Assembly: GCA_000697665.1 (NCBI GenBank)
Contig: KL197716.1
Span: forward strand, 1,016,922 to 1,080,921
Reading direction: 5' to 3'
Length of the DNA: 64,000 bases
From: Jaapia argillacea MUCL 33604
Lineage: Eukaryota > Basidiomycota > Agaricomycetes > Jaapiales > Jaapiaceae
Shown here: positions 34,634-64,000 of the stretch, one piece after another
Layout of the letters: each line of letters opens with the position of its first letter
How positions within the stretch are numbered: the stretch's first letter is position 1
Position numbers and translations under genes: made by a program
Notes under the pieces: model-generated
Databases searched by the model: none
Seen by the model: the letters and a program-made list of their open reading frames with translations, nothing else
Told to the model about the DNA's origin: nothing

Positions 34634-37600
34634 ATGGCAAAGACCAAGCACAAGCCTCATAACCCCTCCCCTCCTCCTCCCCCTCAATCGACAATGGTGA
34701 AGATGAAGAAGAAGTGCATGGAACTAATCAAATGGGACAAAAATGCAGTGTGGACCCACAAGGCCATCACATACTTCATGGAAAACCCAGCATTCCAAAT
34801 GAAGTTATTCAATGATTCAACAGTTGAGGCAAAGCAGCAGGGTCATTGGAAAGTTGTTGCCATGGAGGGGAAGGTGATCCTTGTTGGAAGGGTTAGGTCA
34901 AGCAGTGCCGAAGGGTTGATGCCGAGGAGAGTTTCTTTATTCCGTCCCTTCCATATGCTTATTCCGTGCTATGCCGTTCTCTAAAAACTATACAGTTATT
35001 TGTTCTGCTGCGTTCCGTAGTATAAAAGACATAGGATATTTGTTGTACACCCTCAGAGACTTGTTATGATCTCTGAGGTGAGCCTATCATATCTACCCTG
35101 TATTTGAGCCTGTACTCATTCTCTTTGTAGTCTGACTTTATTGTTCAGGTACTTATATTGAATATAGAGACTTGTTACGATCTCTGAGTCTTACTTTATT
35201 GTTCAGATATTTGTGCTATGCTGTTAGGTTATGAGCCCCAACATGTCCAACAACACAATCACCTTCTCCGACTCCAAGGACCCGATCTACACTATCCCAA
35301 AGCTCAACCCAAAAGGGACGAACTGGATTGTGTACAAAACTCGTCTTACAGTTGCCTTCTCTGTGCGGAAGCTCATTGGTCACCTAGATGGCATGGATGT
35401 GATGCTAGCACACCCCCTTCCCAATGTCGACATCAAAACCGCCATGCTGACTGAGGCCCAGGAGAAGCTCCACCATGCCTGGCTTGTTTGCTTCCAGGCT
35501 TGGATGGACAAGGAGAATATAGCCCGTCAGGCTTTGGTGATGACCCTTGACAATCCAACCTTGATGAAGGTACATCAGAAGGGAAGTGTTGCTGCAATGT
35601 GGGCTGCGATCACCAAGGTCTATGAGGATAAGACCAAGGTGGTAATATCTGACATGAAGATGTGTATGCATCAGTTAAAGTGTGCCGAGAACGGAGATCT
35701 TCAAACTCACTTTGATAAGCTGCAGACATTATATGAGCAGCTTGCTGGTTTGAAGGAGGCTCCTGATAACACCAAATACCGCTTGATTATCCTCACTTCC
35801 ATTCCAAAGACATACCGAGACTTTGCTCAGTCGCTTATTGCTGCCTTGCATTTGGTCAAGGTTTCAATTTCAACTGAAGACCTCATGACGTACCTTGTTC
35901 AGACATATGATGACCACATCATCGAAGCTTCTTTGAAGAAGTCGAATGATGCTGCTTACACCGTCCATAGCTCCAGGTCTGGCTCCAGTTTCTGCAGTGG
36001 TGGAAATGGTGGGGGCAGTTCTGGAGGTAACAGTGGTGGTGGTGGCAGTGGAAAGTCTTTGTCAACAAGAGAGTTGAAGTGCTGGAACTGTGATGGGGTT
36101 GGGCACAAGTCAGACAAGTGTCCTAGCCCCAAACAGGACAGGAATGGAGGTGGCGCTGGAAAGCCGAAGACACCAAACACGTCATTGAACACCACATCAA
36201 CTGCTACAATTGAAGAAGTCGGAGCATGGTCAGCGATACCTGCTCTCGATGATTTATTTGATGACTTACCTGCCTTGGAACCCATCCCAAACCTGTTTCG
36301 TAATGACGAGGATCCTGATATGCCTGCCCTGATGGAGGTTTCAGATTTGGAGGATGAGGCTGAGGGTGAAGATGGAGAGGTGTGGTTGTTGGAGGTGGAG
36401 GAGGATGATGATGATGAAAATCTGAGGGTGCTGAGAGGATCAAAGTGTACATGTGAGGAGAGTGGGATGGATACCTCAATTAGAGGTGATGCCACACCAA
36501 CTGCCCCTGTCCCTGACATTGAGGTTGTGGCACTTGGGGATACTCATCTGAGGCCTTCAATCCCTGCCAAACATGTTGAGCTCTTCGACTCTGGTGCTAC
36601 TCGTCACATGTCTCCCTACCACAAGAAGTTCATCTTGTACCAAGAAGTTGGTCCAATGCCTATTAGCGCAGCCAATCAGCAATCATTCAGTGTGATTGGG
36701 GTTGGGGACATGGTTATTGAGATCCCAAATGGTGATGAGACCTCAAAGGTTTGACTTACTGATGTCCTACATGCTCCCGATATTGGCTTCACTCTCGTTT
36801 CCGTGGGTCAGATTGATGCTGCAGGAGCTTCAGTGTTGTTCGAGGGTGGAAAGTGTGTGATCTCAGATGTGTCTGGGAAGGTGGTTGGTCAGATCGAGAA
36901 AGTTGGTGGTCTCTATTGCATCCGACATGAATCAGCTCCTGGTGGTGAACCAGCACACTCAGTTGAAGTTCTCACCTTATCCGACTTACATTGCTGCATG
37001 GGCCATATATCCCCCAAGGTCGCAAAACATCTTGTCCAGGATGGATTGGTCACAGGCATAGAGCTGTGTGGTCCACATAATGCTGGTTTCTGTGAGAGCT
37101 GTGTGTTCGTGAAGTCAAAGTGCAAGCCCATTCCAGATGGGAGATCGGGGGAGAGGGTGTCCGAGTTTGGGGGAGAGGTGCATTCTGATGTTTGGGGGCC
37201 TGCACCAATCAAAACTGTTGGTCACCATTGTTACTACGTGTCACTCACAGATGACAAGACCTGCTACACTCACCTCTACCTGATCCAACTCAAGAGCGAT
37301 ACCTTTGAAGCCTACAAACAGTTTGAGGCTTGGGTGAAGACACATTTGCGTGCAGATGTCAAGATCCTACACTCTGACCAAGGGGGAGAATACATGAGCA
37401 ACGACTTTGGCAAGTACCTCACTGACCATGGCACCCATCACAAACTCACTGTTCACAATACACCTCAACAGAACAGAGTGGCAGAGTGTTTGAATGGGAT
37501 CCTATTGGAGAAAGTTCATGCAATGCTGCATGCCAGTGGCCTTCCAAACTACTTGTGGGGGGAGGCGGTGATGCATGCAGTATGGTTGAAAAATCGGATG

Positions 37601-40441
37601 GCGACAAAGGCATTAAAGGGGAAGACGCCATTTGAGGAGGTTTTTGGGAGGAAGCCAGACCTATCAGGGCTGAAGGAATGGGGTTGTTGTGTTTGGGTTC
37701 ATGACACCTTGGGTTTGAAGCTTGATGGCCATGCAAAGCCTGGGCAATGGGTTGGTTTTGATGGAAATAGCAAGGGGCACTGTGTATATTGGGAGGAGAA
37801 AAGGTCAATTACTGTTGAGAGGAACATAGTCTTCAATGAGGAGGAGGTTTTTGTTCCAAGCACCACAACGTTTGAGGGGGAGAGGGAGGAAGTCGGTGAT
37901 GATGGTTTCAACTGCCGTGATGCCACCAAGGACAAATCCAAGCCTATTCCCAAAGAAGTCAGAACCGAACCCTCTGATGAAACTTCTCAGCAAGATACTC
38001 ACCTTGACAACGGCAAACCTACCCCCATTATCCCACTCCCTGATCTCACAATCCCCCCTGAAGAGCCAGCTGGTGGTCGAGGCCCACAGGTTTGCAAACC
38101 TTCTGCCTACACCCATCAAATCCATGGGAATGAGGGCACAGTTTCTGCTCGCCTGAGTGACCCCACCCTCCTGAAAGGGATCCAAGCACCGTCTGCAATA
38201 GTAGATGTGAAGGAGGAAGAAGATGTCGAGGATTCAGGGGGAGTAGAGTTGGTGATGATGAGTGTGGTTGCCGATGCAGAGGGTTTGGAACTGAGGACTT
38301 ATCATGAGGCAACAAGGAGGCCAGATAGGATGAGATGGGAGGAAGCTATGGAGGAGGAGTTGAAGCAATTGAGGGAACTGAGACATTTGAGCTGGTTGAG
38401 AGGCCGAGAGGAGTGAATGTTGTGGGCAGCAAGTGGGTATACAAGGTGAAGAAGGATGCATCCAGATCGATCGACAAGTACCACCCCTGAATTGTTGCAC
38501 AGGGATTCACCCAAGTCGAAGGTGTTGATTACTTCGATATGTTTGCACCCATGGCAAAGCTCTTGTCAATCCACATTGTCCTTGCTATGGCAGCTCGTCA
38601 TGACTGGGAAATTGACCAGATGGATGTCAAGAGTGCTTACCTCAATGGAGTTCTTGATGAGAATGAAGTCATTTACATGTGACAACCACCCAGTTTTGCT
38701 GTACCAGGCAAGGAGGACCATGTCTGGCGACTCCAGAAGGCTCTCTATGGCCTGGAGCAAAGTGGGTGACAATGGTATCAGATGTTGTGCGAGATCCTTG
38801 GGGGTTTCCAGCTTGTATGCTGCACTGTCAACCATGCTGTGTTTCACTGGCACTCCAAAGACAGTGGCTTGACGATTCTTGTTGTCCATGTTGATGACAC
38901 CACTCTGGTAGCCTTGACAAAAGCCTTACTGGACGACATGAAGACAAAACTCAAGTCAGTTCTTGAGATATCAGATCTCAGGAACATCCATTGGCTCTTG
39001 GGTATTGAGATTAAACACGACTGTGATGCCCACTCCATTTCACTCTGTCAGCACTCTTATATCAAATCCATCATCTCTTGCTATGGTCTTGAGGAGGCCA
39101 AAGCTCTGTCAACACCCATGGACCCAAGTGCAAACCTCAGCAAACCTCAGTCTCTGTTGACGGCGAAGGAGTTCACTGATATGCGAGATGTGCTGTATCA
39201 AGAGGCCATTGGTGCTCTCAACTACGCAGTGCTGGGTACTTGTCCAGATATCCAGTATGCAGTCAGTTCCCTTGCTCGTTTCTCGACAAACCCTGGGAGG
39301 CTGCATTGGGAGGCTGTGAAGAGAGTAATGACTGCCGACACCCTCACCAAGCCCTTACCCAGCCTGAAGGCAAAGCATTTTGCCGTTGCCCTTAATCTTT
39401 GTCGTGCTTGAACGGGGAGTGTTGGAAGGGTTAGGTCAAGCGGTGCCAAAGGGTTGATGCTGAGGAGAGTTTCTTTATTCCGTCCCTTCCGTATGCTTAT
39501 TCTGTGCTATGCCGTTCTCTAAAAACTATACAGTTATTTGTTCCGCTGTGTTCCATAGTATAAAAGACATAGGATATTTGTTGTACACCCTCAGAGACTT
39601 GTTATGATCTCTGAGTCTTACTTTATTGTTCAGACATTTGTGCTACACTGTTAATCCTTTATGCAGAACTTGCTGGTGAGATCTTCAGGCAAGATAACAC
39701 CCTTTCTGGTAATTATGAGAAAGATCTGCAAAGGTTTGCAAAGAGCACCCAGCAACAGTTTGCTTGGTGAGTTATGCCATTCCTCCTCCTGACAAAATGA
39801 GAGTGCTGAGCTGGAAAGATGTGACCAGACTCAAGAAATGATATGGTGAGTATGTTTGGGATTTGAAGGAGACTGGAAAGGTAGCAGATTATGCAGAGAA
39901 CTTGCTCAGTATGTGAAGTTCCACATGTTGTCACACCAGAAAGATGCTGAACCTAGCTGGCAGAGCAAACCAGCAAGGAGTGGCCATTTTGGGATTTCCT
40001 CCATGCAATGCAGAGTGAGCTTCTGAATTATGCGCCAGTGGGTGTGTCATCTTCTCAGGCTAGTCAGGATTTTGATGGTGCAGTGGAGGATCTCTTTTGA
40101 TTGAAGTCCCAGGATGAGGAAGTTGATGAGGATGAGGAGGATGATATAAGTGGATTTGATGAGAGAAGCTGGCACAGTGAGCCCCAAATGGGAGAGGCTG
40201 AAGGAGGAAAGGCAGGAGGAATCATGGTGGAACCCCCATCACCAGGTTCTATAATTCATGTTGATGACAACGATGAGGTTGATGGTGATACATCCCAAAC
40301 ACAAACTTCCCCACATCTCACAGCAAAGGAGAAGGCAAGGCAGGCCAAGGTGCTCCAGAAGCACCTGGCATCGAAATCTTTGTCTTCATCACCAGCCACA
40401 GGTGATACTAAGCAGTCAGCAACAAATGGACATCATGCATG
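34634..40441 (+). mobile_element. Older repeat-borne ORF of unknown family, split by a copia-like insertion
   Basis: The left part (34634-34881) opens MAKTKHKPHNPSPPPPP and contains KWDKNAVWTHKAITYFMENP. The right part continues after 39654 with an acidic, Ser-rich end at 40101-40441. Proteins of this look are multicopy in mushroom genomes; I do not know their family or function. The reading sense picks up on the far side of the copia-like element, so that element landed inside it. It is broken in several places and old, judging by CpG loss. Confidence 0.5.
34882..39653 (+). mobile_element. Copia-like LTR retrotransposon with both LTRs (fossil)
   Basis: The LTRs are 34882-35226 and 39420-39653, flanked by the 5-base target duplication ATCCT (34877-34881 and 39654-39658). 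A primer-binding-type site (GGTTATGAGCCC) follows the 5-prime LTR. Gag with a CCHC knuckle and the protease motif DSGATRH lie in about 35231-36754; integrase and reverse transcriptase parts lie in about 36803-39411. It is broken, with about five breaks. LTR similarity of about 93-95 percent outside one length difference suggests a moderately young insertion, the youngest large element in the window. Confidence 0.85.
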
Positions 40442-51007: not shown

Positions 51008-54000
51008 CCAGTCCCGCTCCATCAATTCTACCACCTCCCTTGCTTTTAGAGCCTCTACCACACCCCATATCACTCAAAAACCTGCTGCTTCAATGTCCGA
51101 TTAGAGGATACATCAAAGCTGGCAAAGGGGGCCAGGCAGTGTCCCCCTTGAAAAAGAAGAGTGATGCTTTGACAGCCTTCAAAATCTACAAGGCTTATGC
51201 TGAGAAGGCCATGGGGGAGAAGATTGAGGCAACGTGAGATGATAAGGGTGGGGAGTACATGGGGAAGGAGTTTCATGAGTATTGCGCAGAGAATGGGATT
51301 CGGAGGCAGCACATGGAGCCTGATGAGCTGCATCAGAATGGAGTGGTGGAGAAGGCTAACCGGGACATTGCAGATGGTGCCACCACCATACTCCAGGAGG
51401 CCAAGCTACCCCCATCATTCTGGGCCATTGCTGTCTCCACCTTTGTTCATACTCAAAACCACACCCCCACCTCTTCTTTACCCAAGTCAACTCCCTACCT
51501 CCAATGGAAGAAGAAGACTCCTGATATCTCCTACTTTCGACTTTTTGGCTGCCTGGCCTATGTCCTCATCTGCAAACAGCATTACAAAGCACTCCAATCC
51601 CACATGCACAAGTGCATCTTTGTTGGATATGTTGAAGGGACCAAGGCCTGGTGCTTCTGGGATCCAGTCGCCCAGAAGTTCTTCATCAGTAGCCATACAG
51701 TCTTCAACAAGAGGTGCTTCCCAGGTAACTCCAAATCAATTAATGTCTTTGGAGTTCCCACCTCTGAGGTCTCAGTCCCTAGTGATGAGCCTCACATGGT
51801 TGAGCTGCCAGATCACAGGGTGACAATGATGGTGTTGATCAGGCACCTCCACCTCCAAATTTTGATGATCCAGCTCCTCCAGCCCCTCCTGCTCCTCCTC
51901 GTGCTCCTTCCCCTCCTCCACCTGCTCCTCGTACTCCCTTAACCTCCACCAACTCCTCCACCATGAAATCAACCTCAGCAAGGTTCCCTGAATGAAACTG
52001 CCATAAGGAACGCCAACATCTGTCCTCAGCACCATGCTGCTCCCATTCTTGCTTCAGTCCAACCTACACCTGCTCCTCCTGCTCCAACTCCTCCTCCTCA
52101 CCCCCCCTTCACCTGCTCCAGCTCCACAACATCATGATCCTTTGATTGAGGAAAGTGAAGATGCAGAAGATGGAGATGCAATGCAAGCAGCTTTGGAGTA
52201 TGTGGCTGATGGCACTACTCTGGATGACTTGTCTTGGGAGCAAGCAATTGAATTTGCCTTCAATTGCTATGCTGAGACGTCATTCAAGGCCCAGGAGCAC
52301 TTTGGTGAACCTAGGACTTTCCATGAGGTGATGCAGCATCCTGAGGAAGAGAGGGACAAGTGGTTTAAGGCAGCATCTGAAGAGATCCAGTCTTTGATAG
52401 ACAATGGAACCTTTGAATTGGTGCACCTTCCACCTGGTCGACATGTGATTGGGAGTTGATGGGTATTCAGAGTGAAGCAGAAGGCGGATGGCTCTATTGA
52501 GTGGGCCAAGGGGAGATTGGTGGCTAAGGGCTTTTCACAGTGACCTGGCTTTGACTTCAACAAAACCTTCACCCCCACTCCCAAATGGGCATCTCTTTGC
52601 ACTGTACTTGCTCTCACTGCTCTGGAGGACTTGGAGTTGGAGAGTGTCGATATTTTGGCTGCTTATTTGAATGGTGACCTTCAGGAGGAAGTGTACATGA
52701 AGCAGCCTGAAGGATTTGAGGAGAAGGGTGATGATTGGGTGTGGAAGCTGTTGAAGTCGTTGTATGGGTTGAAAGCAGGCAGGGTGGTGTTGGCATGAGA
52801 AGTTGAATGAGGTGTTGGTGGAGAAGATGGGATTTGTTCGATTGGTTTGTGAGCACAGCATCTGGGTTTTCAAGTGAGGAGATGCGAGGGTCATTGTTCC
52901 TGTCTTTGTCGACGATGTGACCATTGCAGCTCAGTCCAAGGCAGCCATTCAGCGTGTCAAGGATGAACTCAGCTCTCACTTCAAGCTTCGTGACTTGGGT
53001 CCCACTTCATGGCTTCTGGGTGTTCAGATTGAACGAGACCACTCCAAGCAAACCCTCTCCCTCTCCCAGCACCAATACACCATCAATATACTTGACCGCT
53101 TCCAGATGAGCAACTGTAACAGCATCACCACCCCCATTGATCCTGGTGCAAACCTTACCACCAAGATGTCACCTCAAACTCGAGAGGAAGAGTTAGAGAT
53201 GTGCTCCATTCCCTACATCAATGCTGTTGGTGCCCTTGCTCACCTTGCAGTTGCCACTCATCCAGACATTGCCTATGCAGTGGGAGTATTGGCTCGCTTC
53301 AGCAAGAACCCTGGGATGCAACACTGGAAAGCCGTTCAACACCTCTTTCGCTATTTGAGAGATATGCTTGACTACAAGTTGACCTATTCACCCTCCTCTT
53401 CCCCAGAGCTGTTCACCACCTATTCTGATGCTGACCATGCTGGGAACTTGGACAATGGTCGCTCCACAAGCGCCTATGTTGTCAAGATGGGTACTGGTGT
53501 GATCGGCTGGGCAAGTCAACTTCAAACTGTGGTAGCCCACTGCTGTCTCTGCTGCTCAAGAGATCCTGTGGTTGTGCAACCTATTCACAGAGTTTGGCTT
53601 CACATTTGACAAACCCTCCCTCCTCTACATCGATAACCAGTCTGCCATCTCTGTTGCCAAGAACCCTGAACACCATGGTCGCATGAAGCACATGGACCTT
53701 TGCTTTTTCTGGCTAGGTGGCCAAGGGGAAGATTAGGGTGGCACATCTGAGGACAGATGAGATGCCAGCTGACATCCTGACAAAGGAATTGCATAGGGTG
53801 AAGGTTGGTGAGATGGTGGAGACGTTGGGACTATGGTCTGGAGGATTGACAGATGTGTCTGGTCAGGGGGGAGTGTTGGGAGCTGATTTACTGGGACCAC
53901 AACTGTCCCCACAGGGGATTGAACTCAGGACCTCCTGTTATTATGGCTGAAGGTTGGGGTCAGGATTGGTCCATGGTGGATGTGGCTTGGAACTGCACAG

Positions 54001-54140
54001 TATTATGTAATCATTGACTTGTTCTCTGCAGAGTTGGGCTTGTGTTCATTATCTCTGACACAGCTTGACTCAGTTGTGTAGTATATTGGTTTTGTACAGC
54101 TCAACTCAGGTTTTCTGCTAGATTATTCCAGCACTTCACA
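51008..54140 (+). mobile_element. Copia-like family B element with pol and 3-prime LTR (fossil)
   Basis: Integrase parts lie in about 51140-51750, reverse transcriptase in about 52140-53250 and RNase H in about 53400-53700. A purine-rich tract (GGTCAGGGGGGAG, 53861-53873) precedes the 3-prime LTR (53874-54140, 267 bases, TGTTGGGAG to CTTCACA). It is broken, with roughly ten breaks. The partial LTR at 50507-51007 may be what is left of its 5-prime LTR. Confidence 0.75.
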
Positions 54141-54611
54141 ATGCTTTCATCGATTGGCCCTCTTCTCTTTCCTGCATCTCCTTCTCCCTTATTCCCTGCC
54201 ATCTGCTCCCTTCCTCCCCACCATTGATCTGTTCCCTTATAATTTTCTCCACCCTCCATCTCCTCTGTCCATATATTCTTTGGAAGTTCATCCCTTCTCA
54301 CCTCACTCCTACCCTCCTCACTCCTCTATCCCTCTATTCTTCTAAGCTTTTCATTCCTCACCTCCCTCTCCAGTCCCTTCACCTTCCTTCTTTCCACTTT
54401 CATGAAATCACCTTCAAATTCTTCCCCTCTCGACCTATACCTCCCCCATTCCATGATGCCTCCCTCACCCCTCCTTTCCCTATCATACTCCAACTTCTAC
54501 TCTCTCATCCTCACACTCTTCTTTCACTTACTCTCTTACCCCCTACTCTGCTGGTAGTCATCTACCCACCTCTTCCCCCCTGTCTTCTTCCTGCTTTTCC
54601 ACTCCCCTCTC
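54141..54611. other. CT-rich non-coding stretch
   Basis: A long pyrimidine-rich stretch on the plus strand. Its open frames are low-complexity Ser/Pro/Leu and not credible as protein. No repeat partner was seen in the window. Confidence 0.4.
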
Positions 54612-55075
54612 TGTTAAAGCACTGTGATGTCACAGTCATGGATGTGCTGCTTGTCCTTGATGGAACTTGCTAGAATGCAACTTGCACAGTCACAGTCAGC
54701 ATGATGTCATCTGGTAGGTAGCTGAGTAAGATAGTTAGTCAGTAGATAGAGCAATCCTTTGCCCATCCTTGCATCATCCTTGCTCAGTATTGCACGATCA
54801 CAGTTTCTACCCTTTTCTATGCATTTCTTTCTATGACATCATGCTATCCTCTGCAGTTTATATAAACTGTGTGGGTTGTGTCCTCAGCTCCTCAGATCAA
54901 GTCTTACAAGCCTGGTCTGAGGAGTAAGTCTCTTGTATGATCCTATGTACTTCCTGGACTAACCTGACTTGTAGTTTATCTCTTTGTACAGGTATTTACC
55001 ATTCTAACAGATCAAGTCTTACAAGCCTTGTCTGAGGATTTATCTCTTTGTACAGACATTGTGTCACAATTTCAC
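54612..55075 (+). mobile_element. LTR-like unit with TATA box and an intron-plus/intron-minus repeat
   Basis: The sequence begins TGTTAAAGC, has GTTTATATAAAC at about 54857, and reaches CATTCTAACA at 55009. A segment starting CAGATCAAGTCTTAC occurs at 54893 and again at 55007. The first copy contains a 51-base insert (54924-54974) with GTAAGT, CTAAC and TTGTAG; the second lacks exactly that insert. The 3-prime border is uncertain. Confidence 0.5.
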
Positions 55076-56690
55076 ATTTTCCCACCCCTTCACCTTCTCA
55101 TTCCTGAACATTCTTTGAACTTCTAAGTATGTCATCTTAACTGAGCATTACTGAGCATTCCACAGTTCTGTAGTATTACTCCACTTTGTATTGCTGAGCA
55201 CTCCACAGTTCTGCAGGTATTCTGTAGTCTGTAGTCAGAACTGTATTCTCCCATGAATATATAAGCTACTCTTGATGAGTGATACTCCCCATCTTCGAGT
55301 TGGCATTTCCTACATCTCTTTGGTTGTGTCATTAACTCAAAGATACCTCTTCATCACCATTCAGATCTACAACATTTGCACTTACCAAGTAATCTGCTCA
55401 TCTCTTCACCCTATCCCCTGGCTGCATCATTGAAATTTAGCATTTGCACCCATTTATGACTTCTTACCTGATCATCCTTCTCATCAAATTCACCGTTGCC
55501 ATCATCCAACTCTTCATCACTGTAATCAGCCTTACCAACACACTTGTCGTCATCTGCTCCACTCCAAAATGTCAATGAAATTCTTGACTTCCATCCCTAT
55601 CATTCTCACTCAACCAAAACACTATTCACATGGATATCTCTGTGATCACCACTTCACCTATGCCCAAGCTGCTCATGGCCTTCACAAAACCCATGCCAGT
55701 CTTCACTGGCAGTTCTGTCACATTGACTACTACCAATATCACTATTATCAGTAATCCCCCAACACTTATCATCACTGGCCATCACATGGGCCAAAACCAG
55801 GTTCTTGCTTTGTCATCGTCCCACTCTTCTTTCCCCTGTGACCATCTTGATCCCTTCCACCACCCTTATGTGCATTTCTTCATTAATTCAGATTGCTATC
55901 ATCACATCATTAATCTATGAAAACAACTTCATTCTTCCTTTACTTGTCCTGATTGCTTATATTACTAGTCTCTTTTTGTTTGTTTGTACCTCTCCTCATG
56001 ACGCACTTTGTAGAATCAGAAAACTTATATAAAAAAGAGGGTTCCTTGCTAGCATACATCAGTCTTGTTTCAGTATCTTGTGATTGGAAAGATTCAGGTT
56101 ACCTGGTCTTTCTTGATCAACCTTCATTGGTTGATTAATCCCAGATTAAGTTTGTTTGTGCTTTGGTCAATCATACCAGCCAGACTTACAGGGATCAATT
56201 TGATATTAGAATTAGATTGCAATAGTAGGAACAAAAGTTCTGGATGATAGAAGTCAGACAGTGGAAAAGGATTGATCCATGTTTGAATGTCCAAAGAAAG
56301 AAGTGTTGTAGTGATACTTTTGTCGTTGGCAACTTTAACCAGGCTATGGCCCAGTTAAGACAGACCAGCAGGATTGGCAATCCTACTTTGTTCTTTCCAA
56401 CATATTCTCATCCTAAAGCAGAAGACAAGGGTTGTGCACCCTCTGCATAGGTCTATTTGTCGAAAATGTCATGCCATTCCACACCAACTGGGTTTACCTG
56501 ACACCCAGTTGCACCAAACCCAGTTGTTGTGCCACTACTATTTGCACCATTCCTCCTTCCACACATTACTATCCCTCCACCACTACCAACATATCTGATC
56601 ATGGATATTCGAAATTCCCAGCATTTCCTATGCTATAATCCAACACCTCTGACCCCTCTGACCCCTAATCTACAACAGGTTTCGACAGGA
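55076..56690. other. Non-coding, repeat-derived stretch
   Basis: A TATA-like box (GAATATATAAGC) lies at about 55255, preceded by short internal repeats around GAGCATTCCACAGTTCTG and GAGCACTCCACAGTTCTG (55150-55215). This may be the promoter end of another LTR. From about 55400 to 56690 only low-complexity frames are open; the end probably is the leader of the gypsy-like element that follows. Confidence 0.35.
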
Positions 56691-59600
56691 GATGGAGTCC
56701 CATTATCACGACAAACATTGCATAGGAGATATTGAGAATCTTTCCCTTGAATACAACCACCACGACAATATGTTCCTGGGGAAGACCAACCCACTATTGC
56801 CATACCCACTATACAATCCCACATTCACTAATGCATCTCAACATACATCACCAAGAAGCCGACCTTTACCCACACCTCCAGTTAACCCTATGGATCAAAT
56901 GATTGCCACTATGATTATGGCATTCTCTGGTCTACAAGGAGGGGATAAACCTGTTTCTGTTGCAAAGCCAGACAACTTCAATGTAAATAAGGAAAAATAT
57001 GAAGACTTCCTACAACAATGTCAGATCATCTTCTTATTGGATGAAAGAGATACACCTCCACCAAATCCAAAATTCTCTACATGTTGTCATACATGAAAAC
57101 TGGAACTGCTGCAGTATGGGCACAGCAGTACCATATGAATTAAATTGAGAGTCTCATGCCCAAGTTTCAATATTCTGATCTACAGCATTTCATGGGAGTG
57201 ATGGAACAATTTTTCTTGGATCCTGCCATCCAAGAAAGATCATATGCAAAGCTAAAGAATCTAGAGAAAGATTCTAAGCAACACATGGCAGAATGGTATC
57301 AGGACTTTGAACTCCTGATGAAATGTGCAGGAGTAGCTATTGCAAAGATGTAGTGATGTCATCTCGATGACTTGTATTACATGGAAGAATCAACTAATTG
57401 CCATTGATGAAAATTATCAGCAACATGAGGAAGAAACAAAGCTGTATATGTCAGGATTGTATCAGCAGAAGAAGGCCCCACAGACAGGGACAACACAGGT
57501 AACCTCTGCAACACCAAGCAGCTTGAAGGGGCAAACCTTCACTGGGCGAGCAAGCAGCTTGAAGGGGCAAACCTTCACTGGGCGAGGACAGCCTATGGAC
57601 ATGGATTGGAGCATAACTGATCGACCTAGCGTGAAGTGCAAGGCCAAACAAAGTGAAAAGGGTGCTTGTGGGAGCCCTTGACACATCCCCAATTGACCAA
57701 AGGATCAACAGCAGATCTGGAGGACTGAGACCAAGACGGCCTCAATCAAGGAGATCACAGAGAAAGAATCCCCCACTGATCTCATCAACAGAATGAAAGC
57801 CTGGATCAAGAAAGATCCAGAAGCTGTAAAAGTAGCAGGTTTTGGCTCCAGCATGGTCTAGATGCACCAGATCCCCTGCCATCTGTATTCTCTTCCCTGA
57901 ATCGTTTCTCTGCACTACATATTTGAAGACTCATTACCAGAAAGCATAGACATCCAAGAACAATCTATGTCTTTTGTACCACCATGTATTCTATCATTGT
58001 CAGGGGTGTCTTCCTAAAGGAAGTGCGGCAGAATGACATCCGTGCTTAATTCCCCTATGACTCCACTTGTACCAGTAGTAGTGAAGAAAAATAGAAAAGT
58101 CTCCATCAAAGAAATTTGCGATGTTGATGATAAAAAATGACCTAGTGTGAAGGTTGCTAGGGAACTTTGGAGTATCACACCAAAGGACCTAAATTATTTA
58201 AAGTTGTCCAAGGATTGAATCAAGGCATGCAAATGGACTTGCCTGTCACAATCACCAATCCAGTGACCACCTTATCTATTGATACATTAGCACTTATTGA
58301 TTCCGGCAGTACAGGATCATGTGTTAATAGAGATTTCATTGTACACCATGGTCTGGACACTGTGAAGTTTGATGAACCAATAGAAGTCTGCAATGCTGAT
58401 GGCTCTGTTAATGCTGTAGGTTTTATCTATGACAATCAGCAATCATAAAAAAACATGTATGTTTCTGGTCACCAACCTTGGAAAAGCAGATCTTTTCCTC
58501 TGTTACAAAATGGATTGAACATCACAACCCCATAATTCATTGGAAGCAATGCTTAATTGAATTCCCACATTGCCCCGATTCCTGACAATGGTGACAAGTT
58601 GTATATGTTAGATGTGTGACAATGGATGGTGAGTTGAGCTGTGTCAGAGATGAGATTCATTACAAAACCAATATACTACACACCTGAGTTGAGCTGTGTC
58701 AGAGATGATGAACACAAGCCCAACTCTGCAGAGAACAAGTCAATGATTACATAATACTGTGCAGTTCCAAGCCATGTCCACCATGGACCAATCTTAACCC
58801 CAATCTCCAGCCATACCAGAAGGTCCTGAGTTCAATCCCCTGTGGGGACAGATGTGGTTGCAGTCAATCAGCTCCCAACAGTTATAATAATATTAGAATG
58901 AAAGAAGGCAATGAGGAAAAGGCAGCTTTCATCACTAACCAAGGGTTGTTTGAACCTTTGGTTATGTTCTTTGGTTTAACAAATAGTCCATCCACATTCC
59001 AAACCATGATGAACAATGTTTTCTGTGACCTTGTGTTGAAAGGAAAAGTTGTAGTGTATCTTGATGATATACTTTTTTTACTTCTTCTTTGAAGGAGCAG
59101 TGTGAAGTCACAGCACAAGTACTACAGTTGTTGCATGACAACCACCTCACCTGCAAACTGGAGAAGTGCAAGTTTGAAAGGGGGGAGGTTGAATATTTAG
59201 GACATATTATTGGAGATGGATTTGTTTGCATGGATCCATCTAAAGTAGAAGGTTTTCAGGCTAGCCAACCCCAAAATGCAAACATGATATCCAACAGTTC
59301 CTGGGTTTTGCCAATTTTTATTGAAAATTCAAAAAAGTTTTCTCAAAAATTGCTTTGCCAATGACAAAACTCACTGGTCTTGCTGAATGGTCCTGGGGAC
59401 CAGAACAAAATGAAGCTTTCTCTGCTTTGAAAAGTGCTATGACATCAGCACCAATCCTTGCCATTCCAAACAACATTTAATGTTTGCATTAGGTGCAGAA
59501 CTTGCACAGAAACAAAATGGGGTTTGGAAACCCATTGTGTATCTGTCCAAAAGCTTGTCCCCTGCCAAATGCAATTACAAAATTTATGATAGAGAAATGC

Positions 59601-61095
59601 TCTCTATGATCACCACTCTTGATGAGTGGTGTCACTTCTTGTTAGGTGCACAACAGAAGTTTGAGATTCATACTGATCATAAGAATCTTATTTATTATCA
59701 AAAACCCTTACACCTAAGTCTGCAACAGGTCAGCAAAGTTAACACAATATGACTTTGACCTGATTCATAAACCTGGAAAGACTATGATCAAGGCCAACCC
59801 ATTATCTCATCAGCCAGATCATCAGGGAACCACAAATGACAATGAAGATCTTACATTGTTGAAACCAGAGTGGTTCCGAGCCATCATAGTGGAAGGAACA
59901 GATAGACCTCAATCTGAGATCAAAAAGAACCTTAATCTATATGATGAATCAGTCATCAAAGCCATAGAGGATGGTAATAGTGATTATCATCACAACCAAC
60001 AAGGTTTTTTCTGGAGAAAAGAACAACTAGTTGTCCCAAATGACCAGACACTCTGTGGAAAAGTGATTCAATCTCATCACAACTCCATTAGTGCTGGACA
60101 TCCTGGTCAAGAGAAAACCCAAGAGCTTATTTATCACTCTTACTGGTGGCCATCCATATGCAAGGATGTTATAAAATACATAAAAGGTTGTGAGACTTGT
60201 CAAAGAGTCAAGTACAACCAGCAAAAGAAGGCAGCACCTTTGCACCTGAACCCAGTTCCTAGTTGCAATTAGGAATATGTCTCTGTAGACATGATGACAC
60301 ATCTTCCCAACTCTCTGGGTCATACTGCAATCCTAGTGATTGTTGATATGAAACCAAAAGATTATCTTGCTATTCCCACCATTGATGAGTTGAACTCTGA
60401 AGGATGGGCTAATCCTTATGTGCAAAATGTTTGGGCCAAACATGGATTGTCTCATCAGATTACTTCTGATTATGGACCGCAATTTGTGTCCCAATTCATT
60501 AAAGATATCTATAAAGCACTCAGCATAACTGGAAATCCTAGTACTGCTTACCATCCTCAAACTGATGGTCAAACGGAATGGATGAATCATGAGATCCAGA
60601 CCTACCTACAGATCTTCATAATCACCAACAATCAGACTGGTCCAATCAGTTACCCATGGCCAAGTTTGCTTATCATAATAGGAAACACCCCTTGATGGGA
60701 TTTTCCCCATTCTTTATGACTCATGGTTTTGAAGCCTATACTGGCGTTGAAACTAGAAAGGAATTGAAAAGCAAAAGTGCAATCTAATTTTCAGAGCACA
60801 TGAAGAAAATCCAAGCAGAAGCAACCACTGCATTGTTGTTATCCCAAGAAATTATGAAGCACCAATACGACAGGGGTCGTAAAAGTGCTGTAGACTATAA
60901 TATTGGCAACAAAGTCCTCCTAGAGGGGATTAACATTAGAACAGACTGACCTAGCAAGAAATTAGATGATAGACGCTATGGTCCTTTTGAGATTGTTAAG
61001 CACATTAGAAATAGCACATATACTGTACCGGCACAACCTGAGGCAACATCCCATGTCCCAAGGGAATCATTGCAGTTGCCTATTTAGCCTTTTGT
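56691..61095 (+). mobile_element. Gypsy-like element, gag to integrase (fossil)
   Basis: Gag parts lie in about 56692-57690, with a short direct repeat near 57520-57590. A protease part with DSGS lies at about 58280-58440, reverse transcriptase with YLDDI in 58898-59260, RNase H in 59460-59800, and integrase with an HHCC-type zinc site and DYGPQF in about 60050-60720. LTRs were not identified. It is broken, with roughly ten or more breaks, and carries a family B LTR piece at 58631-58880. Old. Confidence 0.7.
58631..58880 (-). mobile_element. Family B LTR piece nested in the gypsy-like element
   Basis: About 250 bases match the family B LTR in minus orientation, ending CCCAACA at 58880 on the plus strand. 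Its other end is incomplete. It interrupts the gypsy-like element between the protease and reverse transcriptase parts. Confidence 0.7.
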
Positions 61096-61229
61096 CCCAT
61101 GTCCCATAGGGTCTTATCGCCTTGCATCCCCCCAAAATTTGTAGGCCAAAAATAAACAGATAATTTATGAATAAATTACAAATAAATCATATACTACTTT
61201 TGAGAACAAGTACAACACTTGGGGAGTGG

Positions 61230-64000
61230 GGGTGGATGCAAGGTGTCCAGATCATTGGATGCCTTCCACTTTCAACCCCAACCGCCTCCTGCTGTTTTCT
61301 TTGCCCGAGGTGGTGCTGTGTCACCACTGCCACTACCAACATCCTCCTCCTTCCCTTCACATGGTGTTCTTGGCTTTTTTGGAGCCTTGTCCTTCACATG
61401 AGCCTCTGCATTGGTCTGGTGGGCTGTGAAATTGGTTCCACCTTGAACAGCAATGTCAAGGCAAAAAGTTGATACTGGATCAAGGGGAACTGTCTCTGAG
61501 TTAGAGGTGGTAGATGGGGACAGCTGAGTTGATGTGGATGGTTGAGCCAATGTGGAAGGCTGAGTCAATGTGGAAGGTACTGGACCGCAATTCATGGTCA
61601 AGTCACCAGGTGACTGTGACTTTCGTGATCAGGTTTGGCAGCAGCCAAAATCCAGTGGCAGTTGGGCAATGAAGTCAGTTTCTGCTTCAGGATCTGGAAC
61701 AATAATGTCAGTATCAGTGGGGTCACCAGGGGTGAGGGTGAGAAGTTGTGCAACACTGCTGACTGAGTTATCATCAGGATCAGCAGCAAATGGGTCTCCC
61801 TCCTCCTCTTTGTCTCCTGTGATTGAAGAGAAATCCAGCTTGGCCACCTCAGAGGCAAACTTTGGATCTGATCACATCAGCTGTTGGCAATGATTCCAAG
61901 CTGTTGTGCTGGTGATTGACTCATGAGAGGGATTAAGTTCGCTGAGTTTGCAGTTTCCCCAAGCTTGCCTGATAATCTCCAGATTTGTGATGAAGTAGTG
62001 GTAGGCATTAACAAGCCAGGCCACAGTGGCATTCCAAAGGACAGGGAGATCTGAGGGTAGGGAGACTTTATTGGTGGGGACACCAGCAGCAAGTTGTTGG
62101 GTGGCAGTTGCCACAATGAAGTCTGTTGTGCTCTGCCTGACCTGGTGCTTCAGCAACCTCTGCTGACCAACATCAGCCAGTTGGCCAATGCTGGTGCCTA
62201 TGGAAAATTTGGAGATAAGAATGTGGATGACACAAATGAATTGAGATAAGGACTTACAACCCCCAGGCACAACGACTAGAAGAATGTCTGGATGCTCTCA
62301 AAGCATCCATAACAGGAAGTCATTGGGACTTTTCTTCGTGATGTGGACAGGCCAAACATCCAGAAGAAGAAGAAGGGACTTAGAGTCTGGAGGAAGGTTG
62401 TGCTTTTGTCGCATCCTGTTGAGGTAAGGAATCAATTTTTCTAGAACCTACTTGAGGAACATCAGCAAACAAAGAATGGCAGCAAATTTACAATAGATAC
62501 ACACCTGCTTTGTGGTGTCTTTTGAACTCCAGCGCCGTTTGTTACTATGACTATAGGTGAACCCCAAGGCATCAGCCTCATCTTGCGTTGCAGCTCTTGT
62601 ACATGGCAAGCTTGCAGCTGTAGTACCACCCCAGATGGATTGAAAGGGCAGCATGTTGCCAGACATTGAGGAGGCAGTGACAACTGTTGTCTGAGGGAAG
62701 ATTAGTTTGAGATCAATATGACCAAAATGGAAAGGGAAAGCTTGTGTACCTGACACTTCTCCTCATGACCAGCAACCAATACATCTTTTGAACCTTTCTC
62801 TTCATATGTATACTTTCCGGTAGGAAAGAGACTTAAGCCAGTTTGGTCAGCATTAACAATATAATTGGGGTGGATGTTGTGGATTCTGCATGCAAATGTG
62901 ATGTGAGCATGCATTGCAGAACGCAACTCTTCCCAGTTCTCAGGAACTTTTTGTGTGGCCCGAGTGGCTTTCCGCATGGTCCAATTTAGAGTACCAGAAA
63001 GAAACTTGTGAACCCATAAGTCAGAGATCTTGAAACCCTTCTCGAGAAGGTGTGGGGCACTGTGTGAGATGTGAGACCAGATGACAGCACCAGCAATCGG
63101 CTGCTGAACACATCCTCCAAATGTATGAATTGCCTTGAGCTGGGCAACAATTGCATTCTCAAGATCTGGATAGGGTGTCTAAAATGTTGTCAATTTGTAC
63201 CCATCAATTAAGAGACTTCGAAGAAAACCTACCAATATTTTTGAGCAGCAAGTTACTCCAATCTGCCCAACCTTTGCTTGCTTGAGGACTTTATCCTTCC
63301 ACTTCTTTCCACCATTCTTGTCATCCACAATCCATTCTGTAACCATCTGATGGTGCAAGCCACCAACCTCTCTGACAATGGGCTTGTACCACTCAGGTTT
63401 ACCCACCCATAGATGTTGGCAGATCTTTGCTGGGCTCCATCCAACCTTTTGCTGTGCTTCTAGGATATCAACCCAATAAAAATGAAGCTGCCAATTTGTC
63501 CAAAAGGGTGGTTCAGGCAACCCAGTCTTTAAAGCCTTCTTCTCTCAGAGGTGGATGGTTGTGCCAGAAACAGTCTTCCGAGCATTCTGCTGTTTGAGGG
63601 TTAACAGGAGCTACAATGAATTCAATGAGCCACAGAATTTTCTAACAGCTGAGAAACTCATACCTGTTGGGCTGGGATCAAGGCTGGGCAATCAGTATCA
63701 TCAATCTCGATGACATCCACTTTGTGGCTCTCAGCTTCCTTTCTCTTCCAGAAATGGTATAGCACCTTCCTTTCCCATTCAAATTCTCACTTCTCCTCCT
63801 CTTTCTTCTGGGCCTTTTGTCAATCTTCAAACCACTTCCTTTCTATTCATGCTCAGAGAACTTCTAAATTGCGCAAGTGCTGTTCTGCAGCTTCTTCTGG
63901 GCTGATGGCAGCAAACAGAAGCTTTGATTGTGTTTTCCTTGATTGGTGAAAAGAGATGCTGGTACAAAATACTGGGGATGGCAAACGAGATATTACCATA
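61230..64000 (-). mobile_element. DDE-type DNA transposase, decayed, running off the right edge
   Basis: Minus-strand coding blocks are EPPFWTNWQLHFYWVDILEA (near 63510), a helical DNA-binding region, LNWTMRKATRATQKVPENW, IVNADQTGLSLFPTGKYT (first catalytic Asp), LPFQSIWGG, LLLDVWPVH (second Asp), VVPGGC and WNATVAWLVNAYHYF. This is the pogo/Tigger-like DDE family common in mushroom genomes. Introns with canonical borders remain at 63232-63179, about 62756-62700, about 62505-62452 and 62257-62198. An in-frame stop lies near 62298-62300 in the conserved part, and several lie upstream of 63540, so it is not functional. The C-terminal part is acidic, then Ser/Thr/Pro-rich. Terminal inverted repeats were not found; the right end is cut by the window. 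Confidence 0.75.

Follow-up and report, generated by a model that had tools for sequence, protein, structure and literature searches.

Copia-type retrotransposon families of Jaapia argillacea carry an intron-bearing LTR leader followed by a precisely intron-less copy

The window analysed here is a stretch of 64,000 nucleotides from Jaapia argillacea MUCL 33604 (contig KL197716.1, positions 1,016,922 to 1,080,921 of the forward strand; C8 below), and positions 54893-55060 within it are the leader of a solo long terminal repeat (LTR) of a family that we call F2. The leader contains two pairs of short repeats, A1/A2 and B1/B2, and the last part of the LTR lies beyond the window, on the far side of a second, nested element. 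The features are as follows:

54607 to 54611, plus strand: 5' target-site duplication (TSD), CTCTC, with the identical five bases after the LTR end at C8:1081673-1081677 (stretch L106)
54612 to 55061, plus strand: first part of the F2 LTR, made up of U3, the leader and the first bases of U5
54859 to 54865, plus strand: TATA box TATATAA, 35 nt before A1
54887 to 54925, plus strand: inverted repeat with arms of 13 + 13 nt (54887-54899 and 54913-54925), which straddles the predicted RNA start and takes in the donor GT
54894 to 54923, plus strand: A1, 30 nt, predicted exon 1, from RNA start to donor
54924 to 54974, plus strand: intron 1, 51 nt, GTAAGT..CTAAC..TTGTAG, predicted to be spliced
54975 to 54991, plus strand: B1, 17 nt, predicted exon 2
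54992 to 55008, plus strand: x, a 17-nt spacer with a donor-like GTATTT at its start
54992 to 55055, plus strand: predicted intron 2, consisting of x-A2-B2, 64 nt, GT..AG, putatively spliced
55009 to 55038, plus strand: A2, the second A copy
55039 to 55055, plus strand: B2, the second B copy, joined to A2 without an intron
55062 to 64000 and on to about C8:1081610, plus strand: second LTR-type element, nested in the U5 of the F2 LTR and starting TGTCACAATTTCAC
C8:1081616-1081672, beyond the window and about 9.6 kb further on the same contig: the rest of the U5 of the F2 LTR

Read directly from the sequence, the order of the leader is A1-intron(51)-B1-x-A2-B2, in which A2-B2 equals A1-B1 minus the intron; A1 and A2 differ at one of 30 bases, and B1 and B2 do not differ. 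This agrees with the original prediction, made from the letters of the window, of an intron-plus unit followed by an intron-minus unit at this place, and of a 51-base insert at 54924-54974 with GTAAGT, CTAAC and TTGTAG signals. The second copy that it announced is also present, and only its position needs correction: A2 begins at 55009, and 55007, given for the preceding C, is off by one. Both halves of the tandem belong to one LTR and not to different elements; its TG..CA ends (from TGTTAAAG at 54612 to TTTATCA) and the CTCTC on both sides mark a solo LTR. The nested element is about 9.6 kb long, has CATTG at both junctions, and has a similar LTR in L101, beyond the window (L101, L106).

A genome search with a 301-base F2 query returned 24 matches including the query, and in 13 of the others the match extends over 219 bases or more. 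In the 14 copies that were parsed, the insert is 51 nt long with identical borders in all, and these are splice-like (GT..AG) in 13, as the original prediction needed them to be in other copies, with TAA in the remaining one (L095). F2 copies start TGTTGAA, end CTTCATCA and have 5-bp TSDs, and each of the ten in which both ends could be read is a solo LTR with a TSD: the window copy and L002-L005, L007, L094-L096 and L119, the TSD of the last having one mismatch. The ends could not be read as a pair in L006, L091, L092, L093, L097, L098 and L099, and several other F2 copies adjoin runs of N. In L119 (C24:352950-354200) a run of N is followed by another incomplete copy that shares its flank and was apparently duplicated in assembly. 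None of the F2 copies fetched had a visible internal region beside it, so that the tentative copia assignment of F2 rests on the similarity of its intron to those of F3 (z 2.9) and F1 (z 3.0), two families with copia primer sites.

The family F1 is represented in the window by an element with both LTRs, flanked by the TSD ATCCT at 34877-34881 and 39654-39658:

34882 to 35226, plus strand: F1 5' LTR, tandem form, with A1 at 35055-35077, intron at 35078-35130, B1 at 35131-35148, x at 35149-35165, A2 at 35166-35188 and B2 at 35189-35206
35227 to 35239, plus strand: F1 primer-binding site GGTTATGAGCCCC, complementary to the tRNA-Met anticodon region
39420 to 39653, plus strand: F1 3' LTR, single spliced form A-B, lacking both the intron and the second copy

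Members of the copia superfamily of the Drosophila copia and Ty5 type are LTR retrotransposons primed by half of an initiator tRNA. F1 resembles them in its copia-type gag, integrase and RVT_2, its 5-bp TSD, and a primer site that matches the anticodon region of tRNA-Met. A domain search placed PF14223 (Retrotran_gag_2) first, SH3_retrovirus and rve next, and RVT_2 last, which is the copia order (the rve match scored 30.9 bits, against a cut-off of 32.6). The sequence GGTTATGAGCCC follows the LTRs of F1, F3 and F7, and this 12-mer lies over the anticodon in six tRNA-Met genes, pointing to a putative half-tRNA primer. As had been noticed, the leader of the F1 5' LTR has the same order of parts as that of F2, with a different base sequence.

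A scan for an A-(GT..AG)-B unit followed by A-B found exactly two places in the window, the F2 and F1 leaders, and none in 12 dinucleotide-shuffled windows; chance origin of the layout, which the original prediction had thought unlikely, can be set aside on that count. Its further contention that the two cases are independent is unlikely to be right. They are probably related, given weak homology between the introns of some pairs of families, the presence of the layout in five families, and the copia features of F1, F3, F4, F5 and F7; in our view the layout was passed on within a single copia group, A1/A2 and B1/B2 then changing together, and separate origins are less probable. Similarity between introns is highest for F4-F7 (z 5.2) and F1-F5d (4.0), followed by F1-F2 (3.0) and F2-F3 (2.9), with 22 of the 36 pairs below 2.

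Several copia-type retrotransposon families of this genome have an LTR with an intron-bearing leader and then a precisely intron-less copy. Families were sought through the primer site GGTTATGAGCCC (23 places), copia gag (28 matches) and LTR queries, and the intron-like difference next to the predicted RNA start, which the original prediction proposed to look for in other LTR families, was found as the full tandem in five of them: F1 (1 parsed LTR), F2 (14), F3 (11; C49, C8 and others), F4 (3; C6, C29) and F5 (7; C54, C33, C6, C3, C58, C68, C18). These 36 tandem LTRs are a set of 35 plus one interrupted LTR added afterwards. An extra, partly readable F2 copy at C26 (L097/L098) and partial F3 and F5 pieces (for example C8:143611-144742, C16:707990-708447 and C11:509028) were left out. 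Copia gag matches, a tRNA-Met-type primer site, or both, accompany F1, F3, F4, F5 and F7. Palindromic, MITE-like insertions interrupt two LTRs, one of them inside the x of L075 and the other between the end of L083 and the start of L084. A further copia-type LTR family, F6 (window 53903-54137; 82 genome matches; L034, L107-L118, L120), lacks intron 1 and shows a simpler tandem, R1-x-R2, whose x-R2 part forms a GT..AG unit of 54 nt (L034), and other F6 copies have a single R; by eye, its repeat does not start at a TATA-defined position, and F6 was therefore left out of the evidence.

Among 53 stretches examined, 33 tandem LTRs could be read whole, and in these the insert is in the first copy, with none between A and B in the second (in L091 a small deletion gives an A-B gap of -3 there). 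No A-B-x-A-B, A-i-B-x-A-i-B (i, the insert) or triple arrangement occurs among the 33. Single forms also exist: eight LTRs are A-i-B (L071, L077, L080, the second LTR of L064, L040, L105, L029 and L090), six are A-B (the F1 3' LTR, L099, L076, L078, L079 and L085), and F7 is A-i-B only, in both of its copies. Of the forms met with in the LTRs fetched, the tandem is the most frequent, with 36 parsed versus 14 single. As regards individual readings, L072 ends within x; L104 shows only its two B matches in the form count, its A being too diverged; an extra overlapping match to the B reference in L040, L088 and L089 makes a 54-nt insert read as 42 (L040 checked by eye); and in L008 an A-B recurs after a run of N, next to the same flank, which was taken as an assembly duplicate.

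The insert in the first copy has the borders and length of a short spliceosomal intron, GT..AG in 34 of 35 units and 51-58 nt across families, and in F2 a branch-like CTAAC can be recognized by eye. It might instead be a spacer or small insertion gained later in copy 1 of a tandem duplication, which we regard as very improbable in view of these constant borders and lengths and of the presence of the same insert in eight single-copy LTRs. The original prediction overlooked a second unit. The spacer x begins GTR in 34 of 36 parsed LTRs and ATA, a single substitution away from GTA, in the other two. B2 could be read in 34 LTRs, and in 33 of these it ends AG; x-A2-B2 measures 58-67 nt (or 56 in the truncated parse of L066), and beyond its GTR start x differs between families. 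Judged by these borders, x-A2-B2 is itself an intron-like unit. Taking out both units leaves A1-B1-U5, the order in which A2-B2-U5 is already encoded, and it is these borders on x-A2-B2 that would make a stable cycle possible.

The left edge of A2 marks the start of the A repeat, and in 31 of 35 LTRs a TATA-like box (TATA or TATG) precedes this point by 30-35 nt, the distance at which an RNA would be expected to begin; no such pattern was found upstream of A in the other four. One way to obtain a spliced duplicate with this edge is an occasional accident of strand transfer: in each family on its own, spliced strong-stop DNA would have been linked to the RNA 3' end although it had not annealed correctly, and the duplicate would be the scar. 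An A2 that is spliced and starts at the expected RNA start is what such a product should look like, but the tandem is the commonest form (36 versus 14 single) and is common to families some of which have related introns, and in the single A-i-B forms U5 follows B directly, with no x in between, so that the tandem did not arise by mere addition of a duplicate to such a form. We consider this origin quite improbable.

An inverted repeat spans the predicted RNA start and extends to the intron-1 donor. Eleven LTRs were folded, and with 12 upstream bases included their z-scores run from -1.2 to -4.7, versus -0.6 to +1.6 when folding begins at A1; the window hairpin (54887-54925) reaches -22.4 kcal/mol and z -4.7 with the 12 upstream nt, and z -0.6 from the A1 start. 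Over 35 LTRs the mean fold energy is -17.1 kcal/mol with the upstream arm and -5.2 kcal/mol without it. In two of the 11 the hairpin is unremarkable, since 27 and 19 of 200 shuffled sequences fold just as stably. RNA from the 5' LTR would begin inside the repeat, and read-through RNA of the 3' LTR would hold all of it. Accessibility of the donor, averaged over eight positions, does not drop with the upstream arm (0.303 versus 0.295), and masking of the whole donor by the hairpin is not supported by this first, broad measure. In a narrower window chosen after that result, positions -3 to +2, accessibility falls from 0.25 to 0.11 with the arm (0.22 with a shuffled arm), and at +3 to +6 it rises from 0.35 to 0.51.

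The two copies of each repeat within an LTR have changed together. In the six F5 LTRs other than L104, whose A1 is unlike its A2, identity within the same LTR is 97.0% (A) and 93.5% (B), versus 75-78% and 60-63% between LTRs, and pair-sites of the concerted kind exceed positional ones by 98:2 (A) and 83:1 (B), or by 109:5 and 106:1 with L104 included. When partners are permuted among all seven F5 LTRs, 2 (A) and 4 (B) of 5040 permutations reach the true pairing, and among seven family representatives the true pairing stands alone (1 of 5040), for A and for B. Concerted to positional counts are 0:0 (A) and 5:0 (B) in F4, and 30:1 for A in F2, where the 30 amount to one site (3 copies versus 10); F2 has no informative sites in B. 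The pairing signal in F3 is weak, at 48:25 (A) and 42:7 (B), transitions only, with 534 and 2230 of 20000 permutations. L093 and L075, the latter with its insertion in x, are incomplete in the parse and were dropped from these counts. Of the mismatches between copies of the same LTR, 57 of 68 are transitions (F5e was excluded, F5b was not part of this set, and copies of unequal length were passed over), an excess in line with decay after insertion. In an old tandem handed down passively, the A1 copies of different families should be alike; A1 instead resembles its own A2, and the preponderance of concerted over positional sites disposes of a simple ancient duplication inherited by position. 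The co-evolution of the two copies suggests that a spliced RNA end may be written back into DNA when the element copies itself.

The explanation that we consider best, and to which we give an even measure of belief and doubt, is that the R region is split in DNA and rebuilt by splicing. Transcription would start at A1 and yield a leader containing a pair of short introns, the first separating A1 from B1 and the second being x-A2-B2, and removal of both would give an RNA 5' end A1-B1-U5. In the 3' LTR the transcript would pass through A1-intron-B1-x into A2-B2 and end there, which places a predicted poly(A) site in or just after A2-B2. As A-B is also encoded pre-joined as A2-B2, strong-stop DNA made from the spliced 5' end could anneal there, at the RNA 3' end, and U3-A1-intron 1-B1-x would then be copied from the unspliced 3' end, by which the intron could survive a cycle that uses a spliced 5' end. 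A2-B2 would be overwritten from A1-B1 in every cycle, and the hairpin, we infer, may mask the intron-1 donor in the 3' copy. A split R rebuilt by splicing explains why the order is fixed and the second copy free of the intron, where the A2 edge lies, why x-A2-B2 has intron borders, why other tandems are absent and why the copies evolve in concert. The original proposal that leader splicing is coupled to reverse transcription fits the data in the same way; what it missed is that x-A2-B2 may be removed as well.

Elements with both LTRs read provide a further view. Six have identical 5-bp TSDs, and their 5' and 3' forms are respectively tandem and A-B in F1 (ATCCT), tandem and tandem in C6 (TAAGA), A-i-B and tandem in C3 (AGTTA) and in C36 (ATAGT), A-B and A-B in C76 (GCTAC), and tandem and A-i-B in C8 (C8:209451; CAGGC). 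The two forms are unequal in four of the six, which speaks against a split R, since ordinary reverse transcription would then need a template switch or a later deletion. The two single forms are just what deletions between A1 and A2 and between B1 and B2 would produce, whether these happened in the course of reverse transcription or afterwards, and repeat-mediated deletion is the likely source of the unequal pairs. That C76 has A-B in both LTRs, and that F7 has A-i-B only, indicates that the tandem is not strictly needed. Two observations favour passive inheritance, in which unspliced genomic RNA is reverse transcribed, splicing serves mRNA only, and the copies are kept alike by repeat-mediated template switching or gene conversion: both deletion products of A1 x A2 and B1 x B2 recombination are seen (six A-B and eight A-i-B LTRs), so that the A and B repeats probably do recombine, and the four unequal elements are as expected. 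It leaves unexplained, however, why in every family the A2 edge coincides with the point at which the RNA should begin, why no tandem read has an intron in its A2-B2, and why the GTR of x and the AG of B2 are kept, and it calls for repeated conversion of 17-33 bp repeats without ever swapping the intron or losing x. We judge passive inheritance to be rather unlikely. Returning to the split R, its fullest version would make splicing a working part of terminal-repeat inheritance: R would be contiguous at the RNA 5' end only after removal of the two leader introns, the pre-spliced R inside intron 2 would be the landing site for strong-stop DNA, rewritten in each cycle, and the start-spanning hairpin would keep the 3' copy unspliced. 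This we hold tentatively, at somewhat short of an even measure of belief.

Among open-licence papers, taking the best matches by title or abstract opening, we found none on a copia LTR whose R holds two intron-like units and a pre-joined spliced copy. The introns of the plant elements Ogre and EVADE lie in gag-pol and not in the LTR. These LTR retrotransposons have functional introns that serve subgenomic RNAs, and the available portion of the source mentions no LTR copy of the spliced product (PMC12786077). A paper on a viral vector leader is, in its accessible part, not relevant here (PMC5542766). In foamy viruses, according to the portion available, the R region has a splice donor upstream of the poly(A) signal in the LTR, and bases -13 to -1, present in 3'-LTR RNA only, alter the fold of the donor and so separate 5' from 3' behaviour (PMC3694450). 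The likeness to the present families would be that upstream bases exclusive to 3'-LTR RNA shape the donor fold, the effect of the hairpin being a prediction here and the accessibility result mixed; the foamy virus donor serves poly(A) choice, and that portion of the paper mentions no spliced duplicate (PMC3694450).

When an element moves through RNA, any intron in its terminal repeat should disappear as soon as a spliced transcript is copied. If the split R is real, a pre-spliced copy serving as the site of strand transfer would have let these families keep their leader introns, and the concerted changes of A1/A2 and B1/B2 would preserve in genomic DNA the trace of RNA that was first spliced and then reverse transcribed. 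Foamy viruses have one answer to the old problem of how two identical LTRs can act differently at either end of the RNA, and these families would then offer another.
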